Shown here piece by piece: positions 36,739 to 45,515 of a DNA stretch of 64,000 bases (position 1 is its first letter; each line of letters starts with the position of its first letter). Under the pieces are notes generated by a model. The model worked only from the letters and a program-made list of their open reading frames with translations, was not told the DNA's origin and ran no database searches. This stretch comes from Cellulomonas pakistanensis (GTDB lineage Bacteria; Actinomycetota; Actinomycetes; Actinomycetales; Cellulomonadaceae): NCBI RefSeq assembly GCF_016862755.1, contig NZ_BONO01000009.1, positions 62,001 to 126,000 of the forward strand, given 5' to 3'. The position numbers and the translations under genes were made by a program.

Positions 36739-36894
36739 ATGAGCAGCTCAAGTCGCTGCCGGCGTCACTCCCGGGCCGACGTGCCCGGGGGGGACCATGC
36801 CGGCCCTTCCTGCCTCCTGACCCTCCCCGCGCGCGTCCCGGCCGGCCCGGCCGGGCGCGGCGTCGTGCACGGCACCGGGGGGAGCCCGTGCTGA
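36739..36894 (+). CDS. Possible leaderless upstream ORF before the CNNM gene
   Basis: ATG 36739 opens a 51-codon frame beginning MSSSSRCRRHSRADV and ending GTGGSPC; its stop overlaps the start of the CNNM gene (GTG 36888). It directly follows the TATGAT box. It could be a leader peptide controlling the downstream gene. It has no homologue that I recognise, and its codon use is not decisive. Confidence 0.3.
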   Translation: MSSSSRCRRHSRADVPGGDHAGPSCLLTLPARVPAGPAGRGVVHGTGGSPC

Positions 36895-38216
36895 CCGACT
36901 GGCTGCTCGTCGCCCTCGGCGTCGTGCTGACCGCCGGCACCGCGGTGTTCGTCGCGAGCGAGTTCTCCCTCGTCACGCTCGACCCCGGCGTGGTCGAGGG
37001 CCAGACCCGGCCCGACGACCGCCGGGGCCAGAGCGTGCTCAAGGCGCTGCGCCGGCTGTCGACGGAGCTGTCCGGAGCGCAGGTCGGCATCACGGTCACC
37101 ACGGTGCTGCTCGGCTACACCACCCAGCCCGCGGTGAACGCGCTGCTGGCCGAGCCGCTGCGCGGGACCGTCCTCGGCCCGGCGGTCGGCGGGGCGGTGG
37201 CGCTGGTCGTGACGCTGGTGCTGGTCAACGGCTTCTCCATGCTGTTCGGCGAGCTGGTGCCGAAGAACTTCGCGATCAGCCGCCCGCTGGGCACCGCCCG
37301 GTGGGTGGCGCCGCTGCAGGCCGGCTTCACGTCCGCGCTGCGACCGCTCATCACGCTGTTCAACTCGAGCGCGAACGCGCTGCTCCGCCGGATGGGCGTC
37401 GAGCCGCGCGAGGAGCTGTCCGGCGGCCGGTCGCCGCAGGAGCTCGCGGCGCTGGTCAAGCGGTCCGCGCAGCAGGGCACGCTCGACGAGTCCACGGCGA
37501 CGCTGCTCACCAACTCGATCGACTTCACCGACCTCACCGCGGTCGACGTGATGACCGACCGGCAGCGCGTGGTGACGCTGCGCCGGGCGGACACCGCGGC
37601 CGACGTCGTCCGGCTGTCGCGCGAGACGGGGCACTCCCGGTTCCCGGTGATCGGCGACGACTCCGACGACATCGTCGGCCTGGTGCACCTGCGCCGGGCG
37701 ATCGGCGTGCCGTACGAGCGTCGGCACGAGGTGCCCGCGGCCGCGCTGATGATCGACGCGCCGCGGGTGCCGGAGACCGTGCACCTGGGCCCGCTGCTGG
37801 TCGAGCTGCGCGAGCACGGCATGCAGATGGCGGTCGTCGTGGACGAGTACGGCGGCACGTCGGGGGTCGTGACGCTCGAGGACGTCGTCGAGGAGCTGGT
37901 GGGCGACGTCGCGGACGAGCACGACCGCCGGCGGACCGCCGCGTCCCGGCGCGCGGACGGCGCCTGGGTGGTGTCCGGGCTGCTGCGCCCCGACGAGCTG
38001 ACGGAGACGACCGGCCTGGTCGTGCCGGAGGACGGGCCGTACGAGACGCTCGGCGGCCTGGTCATGGCGGCGCTCGGCCGCGTGCCGGAGGCGGGCGACG
38101 AGGTCGTCGCCGGCGACGTCCTGCTGCGCGTCGACACGATGGCCCGCCGCCGGGTCGAGCGCGTGGTGGTGCAGCCGACGCGACCGGCCGCCGACGCCGA
38201 GGGGGCGGCCCGGTGA
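36888..38216 (+). CDS. CNNM/CBS-domain (hemolysin C-like) membrane protein 1
   Basis: 442 residues. The DUF21/CNNM transmembrane domain (1-175) begins TDWLLVALGVVLTAGTAVFVASEFSLV and contains the LVPKNFAIS motif. A CBS pair follows (about 205-330; VVVDEYGGTSGVVTLEDVVEELVGDV), then a CorC/HlyC C-terminal domain (345-425). CNNM/CorC proteins are implicated in magnesium or other cation transport; hemolysin is a historical label. It overlaps its paralogue by four bases (GTGA). A 198-base leader precedes it. Confidence 0.92.
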   Translation: MLTDWLLVALGVVLTAGTAVFVASEFSLVTLDPGVVEGQTRPDDRRGQSVLKALRRLSTELSGAQVGITVTTVLLGYTTQPAVNALLAEPLRGTVLGPAVGGAVALVVTLVLVNGFSMLFGELVPKNFAISRPLGTARWVAPLQAGFTSALRPLITLFNSSANALLRRMGVEPREELSGGRSPQELAALVKRSAQQGTLDESTATLLTNSIDFTDLTAVDVMTDRQRVVTLRRADTAADVVRLSRETGHSRFPVIGDDSDDIVGLVHLRRAIGVPYERRHEVPAAALMIDAPRVPETVHLGPLLVELREHGMQMAVVVDEYGGTSGVVTLEDVVEELVGDVADEHDRRRTAASRRADGAWVVSGLLRPDELTETTGLVVPEDGPYETLGGLVMAALGRVPEAGDEVVAGDVLLRVDTMARRRVERVVVQPTRPAADAEGAAR

Positions 38217-39271
38217 GCCCCGGGGTCGCCCTGGCGCTCGCGGTCGCGCTGCTGGCCGGGAACGCGTTCTTCGTCGCGGCGGAGTTCGCGATCATCTCCG
38301 CGCGCCGCTCCGCGATCGAGCCGCTGGCCGCCGCCGGCGACCGGCGGGCGACGACCGTGCTGTGGGCGATGGAGCACGTGTCGCTCATGCTCGCCTGCGC
38401 GCAGCTCGGCGTCACCGTCTGCTCCACCAGCCTCGGCCTGGTCGCCGAGCCGGCGATCGCGCACCTCGTCGAGGACCCGCTGCACGCGCTGGGCGTCAGC
38501 ACGAGCCTGGCGCACCCGATCGCGTTCGTGGTGGCGCTGCTGGTCGTCGTCTACCTGCACGTCGTGCTCGGCGAGATGGTGCCGAAGAACCTGGCCGTGT
38601 CCGGCCCGGACCGGGCGGTGCTGATCTTCGGCCCGCCGCTGGTGTGGCTGGGCCGGGTCGTCCGCCCCGTCATCGCCGCGCTCAACTGGATCGCGAACCA
38701 CGTGCTCCGGCTGTTCCGGGTGGACCCGCGCGACGAGGTCGCCTCGGCGTTCACGGCGCAGGAGGTGCAGTCGATCGTCGAGCAGTCGCAGGCCGAGGGC
38801 CTGCTGGACGACGAGCAGGGCCTGCTGTCCGGGGCGCTGGAGTTCTCCGACCGCACCGCGGCCGACGTGATGGTGCCGCTCGACGACCTGGTGTCCGTGC
38901 CGGTCGACGTGACGCCGGACGAGGTCGAGAAGCTGGTCGCGCGCACCGGCTACAGCCGGTTCCCGGTCCCCGGCCGGGACGGCGGCCCGACCGGCTACCT
39001 GCACGTGAAGGACGTCCTGTACGCCGACGACGCCTCCCGGCGGCTGCCGGTGCCGGCCTGGCGGGTCCGCGCGCTCGCGGTCGTGGCGCCCGGCGACGAG
39101 GTGGAGGAGGCGCTCGCCGCGATGCAGCGCTCCGGCGTGCACCTCGCGCGGGTGCAGCAGGACGGCCGCGCCGTCGGCGTCGTGTTCCTGGAGGACATCC
39201 TCGAGGAGCTCGTGGGCGAGGTGCGCGACGCGATGCAGCGTGGCGCGTTCCGGCACCGGACGGGGGCCTGA
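38213..39271 (+). CDS. CNNM/CBS-domain membrane protein 2
   Basis: 352 residues from GTG 38213. It has the same DUF21 (VAEFAIISARR-like start, GEMVPKNLAVS) and CBS pair (LVGEV end) as the gene before it but ends right after the CBS domains, lacking the CorC/HlyC C-terminal domain. Such long-short CNNM pairs are common in Actinobacteria and probably form heteromeric cation transporters or sensors. Translationally coupled to the first gene. Confidence 0.92.
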   Translation: MSPGVALALAVALLAGNAFFVAAEFAIISARRSAIEPLAAAGDRRATTVLWAMEHVSLMLACAQLGVTVCSTSLGLVAEPAIAHLVEDPLHALGVSTSLAHPIAFVVALLVVVYLHVVLGEMVPKNLAVSGPDRAVLIFGPPLVWLGRVVRPVIAALNWIANHVLRLFRVDPRDEVASAFTAQEVQSIVEQSQAEGLLDDEQGLLSGALEFSDRTAADVMVPLDDLVSVPVDVTPDEVEKLVARTGYSRFPVPGRDGGPTGYLHVKDVLYADDASRRLPVPAWRVRALAVVAPGDEVEEALAAMQRSGVHLARVQQDGRAVGVVFLEDILEELVGEVRDAMQRGAFRHRTGA

Positions 39272-40575: not shown

Positions 40576-41505
40576 TCAGACCAGCGTCATGCCCCAGGTG
40601 ACCTCGTGCGTGGCGCCCGGCTCCAGGCGGACCAGGCGCTCGCCGGTGCGGAACGCGTCCGCGATGCAGCTCATCGGCTCCGCGGCGACGCCGCGACGGT
40701 CGATCTTCGGGATCCCGTTGCCGGTGCACACCTGCCAGGTGTCCATCGAGCCGTCCATCCACATGGCGGCGCCGTGGCCGTCCGTCGACCCCAGCACGAT
40801 CCAGGACAGGCCGTCGGCGTCCCGGGTGACGTCCACGAACGCGTCGTCCAGCGCCACGCCGGCCAGCGGCTGCGGGGTGGTGCGGTCCTCGGCGCTGGAC
40901 AGCGGGCGCGTGCCGGTCGGCAGCAGGCGGTCGTCGACCGTCACCTGGGACGTGGCGTCGACCCGCAGCGTGCAGTCGTCCACGGCGGCGTCGCCGGGGG
41001 AGAGCCACGGGTGGAAGCCGATGCCGTACGGCGCCGCGGTCGCGTCGAGGTTGGTCGCGGCGACGTGCACCCGCAGCCCGGCGTCGGACAGCGAGTAGGT
41101 GACGTCGACGCGCAGCGACCACGGGTAGCCCGGCGTCGGGACCAGGTCGTGGCGCAGCGTGACGGACGTGTCGCCGTCGGGGCCGGACTCCGAGGCGACC
41201 TTCGCGAACCGGACCTGGGCCACCAGGCCGTGCAGGGCGGTCATCCGGTCGGGCTCGGTGACGGCGACCTGGTACTCCGTGCCGTCCCAGGTGTACCGGC
41301 CGTCGCGCAGCCGGTTCGGCCACGGGGCGAGGACGGCGCCGGAGAAGGCGGGCGCGAGGTCGGTCTCGTCGAACGGCAGCACGACGTCGCGGCCGCCGAC
41401 GCTGTAGGCGCGGACGCTGGCGCCGACCTCGGCGACGACGGCGCGGTGGGCGCCGTGGGCGAGGGGGTGCTGCTGTCCGGAGGGTGCGGGCGTGTTCACG
41501 CTCAC
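40576..41505 (-). CDS. Aldose 1-epimerase family protein
   Basis: 309 residues from a GTG start. The beta-sandwich galactose mutarotase fold shows APWPNRLRDGRYTWDG (substrate region), TALHGLV with the catalytic-type His, and GIGFHPWL with the second His. These proteins interconvert sugar anomers or bind sugar phosphates. No sugar pathway neighbours are present. Function by family only. Confidence 0.88.
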   Translation of the reverse strand: MSVNTPAPSGQQHPLAHGAHRAVVAEVGASVRAYSVGGRDVVLPFDETDLAPAFSGAVLAPWPNRLRDGRYTWDGTEYQVAVTEPDRMTALHGLVAQVRFAKVASESGPDGDTSVTLRHDLVPTPGYPWSLRVDVTYSLSDAGLRVHVAATNLDATAAPYGIGFHPWLSPGDAAVDDCTLRVDATSQVTVDDRLLPTGTRPLSSAEDRTTPQPLAGVALDDAFVDVTRDADGLSWIVLGSTDGHGAAMWMDGSMDTWQVCTGNGIPKIDRRGVAAEPMSCIADAFRTGERLVRLEPGATHEVTWGMTLV

Positions 41506-41553
41506 ACCGTAGCGGGGGATCCCCGGAGCACGGTGCGCCGTGGGTCCCGGGCG

Positions 41554-41916
41554 TCACCACAGCGGCCAGGAGGCCTCCGTTGCGGGCAGGACGATCCGCC
41601 CGACGACGAACCAGACGACGCCGACCGGCACCGCGACCGCTAGGCGGGCGCGGAGCGGCCACCTGCGGTGGGTCAGGGCGCACGCCGGCGCGACGAGAGC
41701 GATGGCTGATGCGGCCCAGGCGACGCTGCCCTGACCAGGGTCGGGCTGCGCGCCCGCGATCCCGACCCCGTGGGTGCCGCCCAGCGCCAGCCAGCCGAGC
41801 GCGGCCATGGTGGCGGCCCACGTCCACCCGACGAGGGTCGCAGCGAGCGGCTCGCCCCAGCGCCACCACCACGAGAGCGCGGGCCGGTCGCGCTCGGCCC
41901 GACGGTCTCGGCTCAC
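41554..41916 (-). CDS. Small membrane protein, tandem paralogue 1
   Basis: 120 residues from GTG 41916. Three hydrophobic segments lie near 25-47, 65-80 and 88-112. It shares with paralogues 2-4 a Trp-rich start (SWWWRWGEPL versus SWFWRSCG) and the signature RWPLRARLAVAVPVGVVWFVVGRIVLPA. It is the most diverged and last copy of the array, and its start overlaps the stop of paralogue 2 by GTGA. No known family is recognised. The operon is led by a secreted SGNH-PKD protein. Confidence 0.7.
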   Translation of the reverse strand: MSRDRRAERDRPALSWWWRWGEPLAATLVGWTWAATMAALGWLALGGTHGVGIAGAQPDPGQGSVAWAASAIALVAPACALTHRRWPLRARLAVAVPVGVVWFVVGRIVLPATEASWPLW

Positions 41917-42335
41917 ACGTCACCCCTGTCGCAGATGGAGAGTGCTGGAGAGTCCCGAGATCGCCTCGGCCACGCTGCGGAGCGAGCCCGGGACCTCGGG
42001 GCGGGCAGCACGAACCGTCCGACGACGAACCAGGTGACCGCCAGCGGCACCGCGACCGCCAGCCGTAGCCTGAGCGGCCAGAGCCCGTGGCTGGCGACCC
42101 ACGGCAGGCCGAACATCGACAGGGCGGAGGCGGCCCACAGGAGGGAGCCGAGAAGGAGGAGCGAGCGCAGGTCGTCGCCTCGACGCCCCGCGGCAGCGTC
42201 GAGCACCAACCAGCCCGAGAAGGCCAGGGGTCCGGCCGCCATCCAGCCGATGACCATTCCGATCAACGGTCCGCAGGACCGCCAGAACCACGACTCGGTC
42301 GCACGTTCCGGTGACGCATGAACGTTCTCCGTCAT
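41913..42335 (-). CDS. Small membrane protein, tandem paralogue 2 (frameshifted C-terminus)
   Basis: 140 residues from ATG 42335. It has the family pattern SWFWRSCGPLIGMVIGW, SALSMFGLPWVASHGLWPL and FVVGRFVLPAP. After VLPAP the reading frame departs from paralogues 3 and 4: one base is missing near 42000, giving an Arg/Ser-rich end. The alternative frame still encodes PEVPGSLRSVAEAI as in the sisters and would stop at 41920. The shifted frame stops at 41913, overlapping paralogue 1 by four bases. Confidence 0.7.
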   Translation of the reverse strand: MTENVHASPERATESWFWRSCGPLIGMVIGWMAAGPLAFSGWLVLDAAAGRRGDDLRSLLLLGSLLWAASALSMFGLPWVASHGLWPLRLRLAVAVPLAVTWFVVGRFVLPAPRSRARSAAWPRRSRDSPALSICDRGDV

Positions 42336-42973
42336 CGCACGAGTCCCGCCATCCCCTCAGCGGGCCGGACCGCGATCGCCTCGGCCACGCTGCGGAGCGC
42401 CCCCGGGACCTCGGGCGCGGGCAGCACGAACCGTCCGACGACGAACCAGGCGACCGCCAGCGGCACCGCGACCGCCAGCCGTCGCCTGAGCGGCCAGAGC
42501 CCGTGGCTCGCGACGCACGGCAGGCCGAACATCGACAGGGCGGAGGCGGCCCACAGCATTGAACCGAGCACCGGGTCCGGCGGAGCGCCAGCGACGCTGC
42601 GCCCGTGGGAGGCGCCGAGGGTGACCCATCCCATGTACGCCATCAGGACGCCCCAGAACCACCCGACGACGACACCGATCTGCAGCCCGCACGAGCGCCA
42701 GAACCACGAACCGGTGGGGCCCTCATGTGTTCGACGGTCGTGCTCGTCAGTTCTCATCGAGAAGCCGTGTCGTCACAGGGAGAGGACCGCGATCGTCTCG
42801 GCCGCTCTGCGGAGCGATCCCGGGACCTCCGGCGCGGGCAGCACGAACCGCCCGACGACGAACCAGGCGACCGCTAGCGGCACCGCGACCGCCAGCCGTC
42901 GTCGGAGCGGCCAGAGCCCGTGGCTGGCGACGCACGGCAGGCCGATCACCGAGAGAGTGGAGAGGACCCACAG
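42003..42973. repeat. Three direct DNA repeats of about 138 bp inside the paralogues
   Basis: Segments 42003-42140, 42419-42556 and 42837-42973 are highly similar at the DNA level, covering the C-terminal membrane helix of paralogues 2, 3 and 4, and are spaced by about 417 bases. They mark unequal crossing-over or slippage and are a likely site of copy-number change. Confidence 0.75.
42332..42757 (-). CDS. Small membrane protein, tandem paralogue 3
   Basis: 141 residues from ATG 42757, overlapping paralogue 2 by ATGA. A hydrophilic lead of 16 residues precedes SWFWRSCGLQIGVVVGWFWG, then hydrophobic segments and the conserved SHGLWPLRRRLAVAVPLAVA block ending PAPEVPGALRSVAEAIAV. Its DNA from about 42419 to 42556 is nearly identical to the matching parts of copies 2 and 4, so duplication was recent or gene conversion is active. 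Function unknown. Confidence 0.7.
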   Translation of the reverse strand: MRTDEHDRRTHEGPTGSWFWRSCGLQIGVVVGWFWGVLMAYMGWVTLGASHGRSVAGAPPDPVLGSMLWAASALSMFGLPCVASHGLWPLRRRLAVAVPLAVAWFVVGRFVLPAPEVPGALRSVAEAIAVRPAEGMAGLVR

Positions 42974-43177
42974 CATCGAACCCAGCGCCGGATCCGGTCG
43001 AGCGCCGGCCAGGCCCCGCCCGTCGAAGCCGCCGAGGACCATCCAGGCCATCACCGTGAAGAGCACACCCCACAGCCAGCCGACCAGGATGCCGAGCTGC
43101 AGCCCGCACGATCGCCAGAACCACGACAGCCGGGCCGGGTCCGTGGGGTCGTCCTCGGGACCTCGATCGATCGTCAT
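42773..43177 (-). CDS. Small membrane protein, tandem paralogue 4
   Basis: 134 residues from ATG 43177, overlapping the SGNH-PKD stop by four bases (ATGA). It has the same layout as paralogue 3: acidic lead, SWFWRSCGLQLGILVGW, middle hydrophobic segment and the SHGLWPLRRRLAVAVPLAVA block, with the end PAPEVPGSLRRAAETIAV. It is the first of four tandem copies. The coupling to a secreted hydrolase suggests a joint role at the envelope, but no function is known. Confidence 0.7.
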   Translation of the reverse strand: MTIDRGPEDDPTDPARLSWFWRSCGLQLGILVGWLWGVLFTVMAWMVLGGFDGRGLAGARPDPALGSMLWVLSTLSVIGLPCVASHGLWPLRRRLAVAVPLAVAWFVVGRFVLPAPEVPGSLRRAAETIAVLSL

Positions 43178-45333
43178 GACACCGTCGGAGCCGACGGCAG
43201 AAGCCCACCGGGCCCTCCAGGAAGCATCGGGCCGATCACCACGCTGATCTCGTCGGCGAACCCGAAGCCCTTCGCGCCCTCGTCGTCCGTCGTCACGAGC
43301 GTCACCTCGTGGATGCCCGGGGCGAAGGTGTGGGTCACGACCGGTCCGGTCGCGGTCGCGCCGTCGCCAAACTCCCACGCGTAGTCGACGATGCGACCGT
43401 CGGGGTCGGACGAACCGGACGCGTCGAAGGTGAACGTGTTGCTGCTCGTGATGCCGGTCGGCACGAGGGTCGTGTCGTGCCGGGTCGTGGTGACGACGGC
43501 GGTCGGGGGCTCGTTCTCGGGGAGGGCGTCGGCGACCGTGAGGAGCACGCCCAGACCGTCGGCGGGGACGTCGGCGCCGAAGGTCTCGACAGTCCACGTC
43601 CCCGGCTCGGGGTCGGCGATCGTCCAGAACTCGTAGGTGGGACCGGCCTCGTGCTCGGCGTCCCGGGGATCGTCGCGCGTGTAGCGGATGCCGGACGGGG
43701 AGATGAGCGACGTGACCACGTCGGTGATGGCCGGTCCGAGCTCCAGCTCGTTCAGAGGCGACACGCCGCCGGCCCGGGCGGGGGCCGCAGACACGATCGG
43801 CCACAGGGTGCCCACGTCGAGCGCGGTCCCCTCGACGTCGACGTGGGTCGTGACGGTCTGCAACGACCGCGCAACGAACGTGGGCCGAACCGGGGCGCTC
43901 ATCGCGGCGACCAGCCGATCAGCCATCAGTCCGTGGCCGAGAGCATTCGGGTGGAACGAAGCCGACCCGTCGCTGATCGTCACGCCGTTGATCCCGGGGA
44001 TGTGCGTGCACAGGTGGTGCCCTGCGAGGACGTCCGTCATCGAGACGCGCTCGAAGCCAATCCGCGTCGCGATCCGCCCGATCGCCCCGTTCGCTTGGCG
44101 GATCTTCTCGTTCACCCAGACCTGGTCCGACGACCGGAAGCCGTGGCAGCCGGCGTACCCGCCGAACCCATCGGCCGGGAAGAACTGCGGGTAGTCGACG
44201 ACGACGACTCGGGCATGGGGAGCGCGCCGCCGAATGTCCCGGTAGAGCTCCTGCAGCTCGTCGGCGAGCCCGCCGTCGCGAAGGGCCGCGATCTTGGAGT
44301 CGACCGACGGTCCCAGGTTCCGAGCGCAGCTCCGCCACCAGGTGCCGACCGGTGAGATGCCGTTTCCAGCCAGGTGCGTACCGATGCAGGCTTTCAGGAT
44401 CCCGGCGAAGTCCAGATCGTTCCCGCCGATCCCGACGGTGACCAGCCGGGTGTCCGATCCCAGCGCGTCGAGCTGCGGTCCTTGGTCCGCCTTCTGCGAC
44501 CGGTAGAAGTCCCGCATCACGGCTCCGGAGCACGCCTGGAAGTCCAGGTCGAGCCGGACGGCCCCGCGTCGCACGAGCAGGTGCGGGTACGCGTCGTACG
44601 AGCGCCGGCAGGCGTTGCCGTCCTTGTCCGTGCCCGGCACGTAGTTGCCGACTCCCTCGCCCGACTGGAACGAGTCGCCCATCGCCACGTAGGTGTCGAC
44701 GTGCACCACGTCCGGCGCGAGGGGTGATAGGTACGTGACGTTGTCGATCGCGAACCCGTTCGGCTCGTTCGCGACCGCCTCCACGCGGAACGACGCCATC
44801 CGCGCCTGTGTGATCTTTACCGTGACGATGCCACGCGCGTCGAGCGGGACGTCCAGCAGCGCCGAGCCGTCGGGGTCGCGGACGATGACGCGGACGCTTT
44901 TCGCTGCGTCGATGTAGCCCACGTCGAGCTCCACGTGGTTGACCGTGCGGGTCGAGCCGTCCTCGCGGACGAACCGCCCCTCGATCGCCCCCAGGAACGT
45001 GGGAGTGCCCGACAGCACCGGACTGGTGGGGTTGGAACCGTCGGTCGTGATGAAGGGGGAGTCCCCGCCGAAGACGATCCCGCGCGGCTGGTACTGCGTC
45101 GTGATCGCCGTGCCGATCCGGAACTCCGAGAAGGTGATCGTCTCGGTCAGGTCCACGTCGTCCGTCAGCGCCGCTCTTGCCTGTGCGCCGACCTCGATCG
45201 TCGCCGTCTCGCCGGACGACCCGGCGGCGGTGGTGCCCCCGGGGTCTTCCGCGGCCGCCACCGGGGCCACCGCCGTCACGGCCAGGACCAGGGCCAGTCC
45301 TGTCGCTGCCATCCGCCGCCTCGTCGCGGGCAT
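43174..45333 (-). CDS. Secreted SGNH hydrolase with PKD domain
   Basis: 719 residues. ATG 45333 is chosen because GAGGAG lies seven bases upstream; ATG 45351 has none. Signal peptide 1-28 ([15 protein letters not shown]) is followed by a beta-sandwich of unknown type (about 60-200). The SGNH domain has all blocks: [10 protein letters not shown] (Ser221), GIGGND and [16 protein letters not shown] beta-rich linker and a PKD domain ([22 protein letters not shown]) end it. It is probably an exported esterase acting on polysaccharide or lipid. It heads the operon with four small membrane paralogues. Confidence 0.88.
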
Positions 45334-45501
45334 GCGCGCACTCCTCGTCATCGGGAGAGGAGCGAGCGGCTGTGGCCCGACGTCAGGTCATCGGTTCCCC
45401 ACGCCGTCCACCCTGTCGGAACGGCGCGTCCCAGGAGCCGGGACCGACGTCCCGAGCTTCCGAGCCGGTCCGCCCCGCGCACGACCCCGCCCGGCAGCGG
45501 G

Positions 45502-45507
45502 TAGCCT
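45502..45507 (+). promoter_or_regulatory. -10 box of a probably leaderless prfB transcript
   Basis: TAGCCT at 45502-45507 lies eight bases before the prfB GTG (45516), and no ribosome binding site is present between them, so transcription likely starts at or next to the start codon. Confidence 0.5.
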
Positions 45508-45515
45508 GGACCGTC

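Follow-up and report, generated by a model that had tools for sequence, protein, structure and literature searches.

Four tandem genes for an unnamed three-segment membrane protein beside a secreted SGNH-PKD hydrolase gene in Cellulomonas pakistanensis

The window, a 64,000-nucleotide stretch of the Cellulomonas pakistanensis genome (G000), contains between galM (40576-41505, - strand) and prfB (from about 45516, + strand) a segment (41506..45515) with a gene for a secreted hydrolase of 725 residues (43174..45351, - strand), followed on the same strand by four genes for small membrane proteins, MP1 to MP4. MP1 (42773..43177, - strand, 134 aa) overlaps the hydrolase stop by 4 nt (ATGA), MP2 (42332..42757, - strand, 141 aa) begins 15 nt after MP1, MP3 (41913..42335, - strand, 140 aa) overlaps MP2 by 4 nt, and MP4 (41554..41916, - strand, 120 aa), which starts at GTG, overlaps MP3 by 4 nt. 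The repeat units are spaced by 419, 416 and 417 nt, and identity to MP1 is 72% for MP2, 52% for MP3 and 47% for MP4. An assembly artefact was considered for the tandem copies and rejected because they differ by 24-42% over the aligned units. The first-pass annotation had described four tandem paralogues with about three hydrophobic segments each and three 4-base overlaps, and this description held: open reading frames of 134, 141, 140 and 120 codons are present, hydropathy gives three segments in each copy, and the overlaps fall at hydrolase/MP1, MP2/MP3 and MP3/MP4. The SWFWRSCG motif that it had assigned to all four copies is present in MP1-3 but reads SWWWRWGE in MP4. The SHGLWPLRRRLAVAVPL block is exact in MP1 and MP2, while MP3 carries the version SHGLWPLRLRLAVAVPL and MP4 the version THRRWPLRARLAVAVPV.

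In eight of the nine proteins compared, loop 2 has a higher density of basic residues than loop 1, which suggests a topology with the N-terminus inside and loop 1 (13-22 residues in the Cellulomonas proteins) outside. MP3 is the exception, with 2 of 14 residues basic in loop 2 vs 3 of 13 in loop 1, and the basic residues in the N-terminal tails vary from 0 of 26 (G065, another Cellulomonas genome) to 6 of 27 (MP4). An AlphaFold2 model of MP2 showed three long helices and a weak C-terminal one, at a mean pLDDT of only 64. The four frames are very probably translated, since their GC content by codon position is gene-like (third 0.84-0.91 vs second 0.56-0.67) and dN/dS stayed below 1 (0.36-0.77) in every one of the 15 pairs among six aligned cores, namely MP1-MP4 and one copy each from G065 and a further Cellulomonas genome, G075.

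A membrane protein of no recognised family had been reported, with profile searches, structure searches and a copy-number survey suggested as checks, and no known family was matched here. At E-values up to 1, the four proteins gave a single Pfam match (MP4, E 0.26; no significant family), a single NCBIfam match (MP2, 0.035), two PHROGs families at 0.089 and above, and zero matches in PADLOC, that is, to none of its immunity or defence families. A PDB sequence search returned one chance match (E 0.79), and the 13 matches from a PDB fold search with the MP2 model (best E 3.6) are not meaningful at a pLDDT of 64. MP2 had no match in phages and plasmids, and viral contigs gave none.

The hydrolase consists of a signal peptide and a beta-sandwich-like leader (both by eye), an SGNH/GDSL domain (residues 223-474), a P-like domain (by eye), a PKD domain (632-695) and a short GPMLPGG tail. 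The Pfam models Lipase_GDSL_2 (5.8e-18, 66.4 bits; cut-off 32.9) and PKD_4 (1.1e-18) were matched, and the GDS, ACSG, GGND and HP blocks align with those of the nearest solved structures, phospholipase A1 4hyq (E 3.2e-22) and lipase 5mal (1.9e-20), over about 254 residues; both are from Streptomyces. With a Pfam score above cut-off and the catalytic blocks present, the protein belongs to the SGNH/GDSL hydrolases, and by profile the SGNH and PKD domains are certain. It resembles the two Streptomyces enzymes in the SGNH domain and catalytic blocks and differs from them in adding the leader, P-like and PKD domains and the overlapping membrane-protein genes. An RHS-repeat protein of 1720 residues (G049, L044:6424-11586) carries a leader 53% identical to residues 15-218, and the NIDO leader of other hydrolases recurs on an RHS protein of G638 (L133). 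Plasmid matches to the hydrolase covered the SGNH part only (12 records). We found no work joining an SGNH hydrolase, a PKD domain and Cellulomonas, and no evidently relevant work on secreted phospholipase partners.

Near-identical stretches between copies had led the first-pass annotation to propose a recent expansion. The near-identity is real: from segment 2 onwards and into the tail, MP2 and MP3 are 95-100% identical in 40-nt windows. Compared with MP1 and MP2, MP3 lacks one base immediately behind segment three, which puts its tail of about 28 residues in another frame. The proposed recent age applies to one half of the genes only: the N-terminal halves of MP1-3 are old (dS 0.64-1.09), whereas the C-terminal halves have been recently homogenised (dS 0.09-0.22). 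The cores of MP1-3 differ from the G075 and G065 copies at dS 0.62-0.97. In a breakpoint test, all three pairs among MP1-3 reached p 0.0005, the lowest value possible with 2000 shuffles, and pairs that include MP4 had p values of 0.01 to 0.2; the optimal breakpoint fell mid-gene in MP1/MP3 and MP2/MP3 and near the start in MP1/MP2. Given the contrast between the halves and the breakpoint test, the array is better explained by an old duplication that was followed by homogenisation, for instance through gene conversion, than by recent expansion. In a nine-row tree with some long branches, MP4 clusters with the proteins of G075 and G065, each the only copy in its genome (support 95/98), and apart from MP1-3. 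No positive selection was seen by dN/dS in the 15 pairs of six cores, and the half containing the outside loop had no excess of amino-acid changes (dN/dS 0.36-0.45 among MP1-3).

These data bear on a mostly non-adaptive history, which we consider unlikely, in which a mobile lipase cassette arrived with one membrane-protein gene, unequal crossing-over multiplied it, and the extra copies drift, with copy 3 decaying. Such decay would account for the out-of-frame tail of MP3, its divergent first loop that breaks the charge pattern, and the highest dN/dS of the 15 pairs (0.77, MP3 vs MP4); homogenised halves are expected of tandem repeats, and more than one copy occurs in only one of the three Cellulomonas species having the protein. 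Drift fits less well with dN/dS below 1 in every pair of the six cores and with four frames that are all open despite the N-terminal divergence among MP1-3.

Nearly all of the segment between galM and prfB is extra relative to 12 of the 12 near relatives examined, which were the next closest by galM score of 77 genomes with a galM match and included G075. The galM and prfB matches lie 39-89 nt apart in all 12, with similar sequence at either edge, and the two genes flank the cassette both in the window and in G065. The G065 hydrolase has its N-terminal part in another frame, and its membrane-protein gene overlaps the hydrolase by 4 nt provided that translation begins at the second of two GTG codons. 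G075 has an empty galM-prfB site and carries the membrane-protein gene on another contig, intact and with an ATGA overlap; of the hydrolase ahead of it, only part of the PKD domain and, by eye, a signal peptide are left. Third-position GC was 0.99 in galM vs 0.91 in the hydrolase vs 0.84-0.91 in MP1-MP4, and the lower values in the cassette, with one neighbour gene as the reference, fit a foreign origin. Elsewhere in the window, two neighbouring genes (36888-38216 and 38213-39271, + strand), which read as paralogous CBS-domain membrane proteins of the CorC/HlyC type, share a 4-base overlap.

The copy-number survey of the genus found the protein in at least 3 of 81 genomes, with four copies in the source genome and one each in G065 and G075. 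A six-row profile matched at least 11 of 221 family genomes at E 0.01 (three Cellulomonas strongly, eight genomes weakly), and an order search on an even draw matched at least 4 of 396 genomes at 0.001 (G000 strongly, three weakly). These genome searches scored part of the first-look candidates, with per-genome maxima of 50 (genus), 19 (family), 10 (order) and 16 (combined profile) for the membrane protein and of 13 (genus) and 2 (order and class) for the hydrolase, so absences are not proof. In a collection of 84,980 species, a first scan returned no locus and a second returned two, in Cellulomonas triticagri and Cellulomonas sp. ACRRI; this contig pattern scan needs short exact motifs, and the more distant proteins of G319 and G246 discussed below were not returned by it. 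Close relatives were thus confined, among the searches made, to three Cellulomonas species. Five weak family and order genome matches were inspected and set aside, two as pieces of large transporter-like proteins (L061, L063) and three as chance frames (L048, L049, L062).

The tie to the upstream hydrolase that the first-pass annotation had drawn proved real, as a single copy lies beside the hydrolase in G065 and diverged relatives lie directly downstream of hydrolases in other families. Searches with the window hydrolase found 8 of 396 order genomes at E up to 1e-35, and searches with the G319 hydrolase found 7 of 394 class genomes at E up to 1e-60, G000 being included in each. A three-segment ORF was present directly downstream in 5 of 30 SGNH loci (G000, G065, G319, G246 and G649), and no such ORF was present in the other 25 (G058, G612, G626, G374, G503, G361, G386 and 18 genus-search loci). 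The ORF had to lie on the same strand, have at least 80 codons and three segments and start between -25 and +300 nt of the hydrolase stop, with no coding filter; the hydropathy threshold was a mild 1.3, and at 1.6 the G649 protein shows two segments. The 30 loci comprised the window, G065, G058, nine from the order and class searches and 18 other SGNH loci from the genus search, leaving out G431, where the frame runs off the stretch, G638 and G752, which were leader-only matches, and the PKD-only matches of the genus search. As a control, a small three-segment gene was next downstream of 2 of 352 genes in 400 kb of related genomes, a low estimate because the crude gene caller overlooked MP3, MP4 and the genes of G246 and G649. 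One branch (support 96/96) unites the hydrolases of G000, G065, G319, G246 and G058, four of the five having the partner, and the placement of G649 is unsure. The clustering of partners on an 18-row hydrolase tree is only suggestive, because 29 of 500 label shuffles were as low. The G319 hydrolase had no plasmid match at E 1e-30, and the G319 and G246 membrane proteins had no match in plasmids.

Several observations were made at individual hydrolase loci. The hydrolases of G319 (L114), G246 (L115) and G058 (L043) have a C-terminal bactofilin-like domain after PKD, with Pfam Bactofilin scores of 25.1, 20.8 and 29.5 bits, respectively (cut-off 27.9). The hydrolase gene of G058 is split between two frames, has third-position GC below that of some neighbours and lies close to a transposase-like reading gene, and the locus resembles a decaying foreign island. 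In G626 (L132, just after 3265), a 178-residue two-segment ORF, lipoprotein-like by eye, overlaps the hydrolase stop by 4 bases and is possibly another kind of coupled partner.

To judge whether the downstream proteins are related, 59 three-segment pieces taken from control proteins served as background. The G319 protein scored 28.0 against profile A2 vs 16.8 for the best of the 59 controls, and G246 and G649 did not stand out, being equalled or exceeded by 20 and 28 of the 59, respectively. Pairwise, none of the controls reached the scores of G319-G246 (28.1 bits), MP1-G319 (26.9), MP4-G319 (19.6) or MP4-G649 (18.5); one was as high as G319-G649 (18.1), 14 as G246-G649 (15.0), 20 as MP2-G319 (13.9) and 37 as MP4-G246 (12.7). 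Homology of the MPs to the G319/G246 family therefore stands above membrane background, although G246 does not when compared directly with A2 alone. By these scores the G319 protein is a relative of the MPs and G246 is one through G319, while G649 is a possible to probable relative with a marginal link. Part-matches of the G319 protein to Pfam MFS_1 (E 1.6e-4, 21.1 bits; cut-off 33.4) and NCBIfam TIGR00880 (3.3e-5, 24 bits; cut-off 131) were below cut-off and were provisionally taken as membrane background. The G246 protein had an NCBIfam match at E 0.0031, and the G649 and G228 proteins had no Pfam match.

The G228 protein (L158:979-1815, - strand) was found with the combined profile A5 (E 1.7e-6, 268 genomes searched); of three matches to this profile inspected (L158, L161, L165), it alone was taken as real. 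It has three segments and a CGFDGC first loop, adjoins a GTPase-like gene and, in the stretch read, is not next to a hydrolase; the family is therefore wider than the lipase pair. The unnamed actinobacterial proteins of G319, G246 and G228 share with the MPs three segments, a loop-1 motif and a W/R-bearing second loop. A CGxxGC first loop is common to these three, the Cys pair being absent from the Cellulomonas MPs, and G228 and G649, unlike the Cellulomonas proteins, have an added outside C-terminal domain. The G228 homologue, with this added domain and its GTPase-like neighbour, would suit an unrelated membrane function such as envelope-stress sensing, the MPs merely travelling with the hydrolase. 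We regard this as quite improbable, in that this arrangement is found again beside hydrolases in different families and only 2 of 352 control genes, the low estimate given above, have a small three-segment gene next downstream.

The recurrent pair could also reflect an anchor, export or maturation partner that would hold the PKD-bearing hydrolase at the surface or aid its folding, with copy number setting capacity. Anchoring was, with immunity and dosage selection, among the roles suggested in the first-pass annotation. The anchor or maturation reading is the main rival to the one that we favour and almost as good, a real if tentative possibility. The overlapping genes and fixed order speak for it, the partnered hydrolases have no C-terminal membrane segment (by eye), and a related SGNH-PKD hydrolase with no downstream membrane-protein ORF (G612, L131:763-3522) ends in LPDTG and a membrane segment, presumably a sortase-type end, as if anchoring in cis had replaced the partner. 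It is harder to reconcile with G075, which retains the membrane protein though its hydrolase is almost gone, and with the G374 and G361 hydrolases, which have neither an anchor (by eye) nor a partner. For a foldase in particular, the short outside parts are unfavourable. Lipase-specific foldases (Lif) have one segment and a large outside helical domain. The MPs are like Lif in being membrane proteins encoded directly after a secreted lipase; unlike Lif, they have three segments and short loops, and no lipase chaperone Pfam model was matched at E 1.

We favour self-protection (probability roughly 0.38), in which the cassette would be a mobile unit that pairs a secreted SGNH-PKD hydrolase of lipase type with a translationally coupled, immunity-like three-segment membrane partner. 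Cell-envelope lipids would be the target of the hydrolase, and the membrane protein, N-terminus in and first loop outside facing the exported enzyme, would shield the producer membrane from the hydrolase or bind it; tandem copies would raise the dose or cover variants, as in a homogeneous polyimmunity locus. Three observations lead us to prefer self-protection: G075 has retained the membrane protein although little of its hydrolase is left, as expected of an orphan immunity gene; the protein has been amplified into a tandem array; and RHS proteins share the leader domains (beta-sandwich, NIDO). The overlapping pair in G000 and G065, the adjacency in G319, G246 and G649, the remote homology, the hydrolase branch, the loop charges and the sporadic occurrence were counted in its favour as well. 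Tandem paralogue arrays are described as an immunity arrangement, the homogeneous polyimmunity loci of polymorphic toxin systems, in PMC3482391, and one duplicated immunity gene is noted in PMC4549250. The C. pakistanensis locus has such tandem small-protein paralogues of one family beside a gene for a secreted modular protein; unlike those loci, its membrane proteins match no known immunity family and its hydrolase is at most a candidate toxin.

In polymorphic toxins the toxin domain stands at the C-terminal end. The cassette hydrolase is like these systems in having leaders common to RHS proteins and unlike them in its mid-protein lipase domain, which occupies residues 223-474 of 725 with PKD after it, and this position was counted against self-protection. 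Also counted against it were the lack of a match to known immunity or defence families, the lack of diversifying selection, the 25 of 30 SGNH loci with no partner (mostly of more distant hydrolases, but with G058 within the branch), the G228 homologue away from a hydrolase, the failure of G649 and G246 to exceed controls against A2, and the weak tree clustering. Many secreted SGNH lipases are not known to need a protector. A still fuller account, a novel lipase self-protection system of actinobacteria with a mobile phospholipase-type SGNH-PKD effector, exchangeable RHS-shared leaders (NIDO, beta-sandwich), a new three-segment immunity family and an array homogenised by gene conversion, we hold to be rather doubtful.

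The unnamed small membrane-protein family is real and belongs to what looks like a mobile lipase cassette; its relationships are wider and older than the first-pass annotation could see. A candidate partner can be named for a branch of secreted actinobacterial SGNH-PKD hydrolases, in a membrane-protein family for which Pfam, NCBIfam, PHROGs and PADLOC contain no fitting model. If the partner anchors, it would represent a non-sortase way of holding a secreted enzyme at the surface; if it protects, the effectors encoded together with their own immunity proteins would come to include a secreted lipase of a Gram-positive bacterium.
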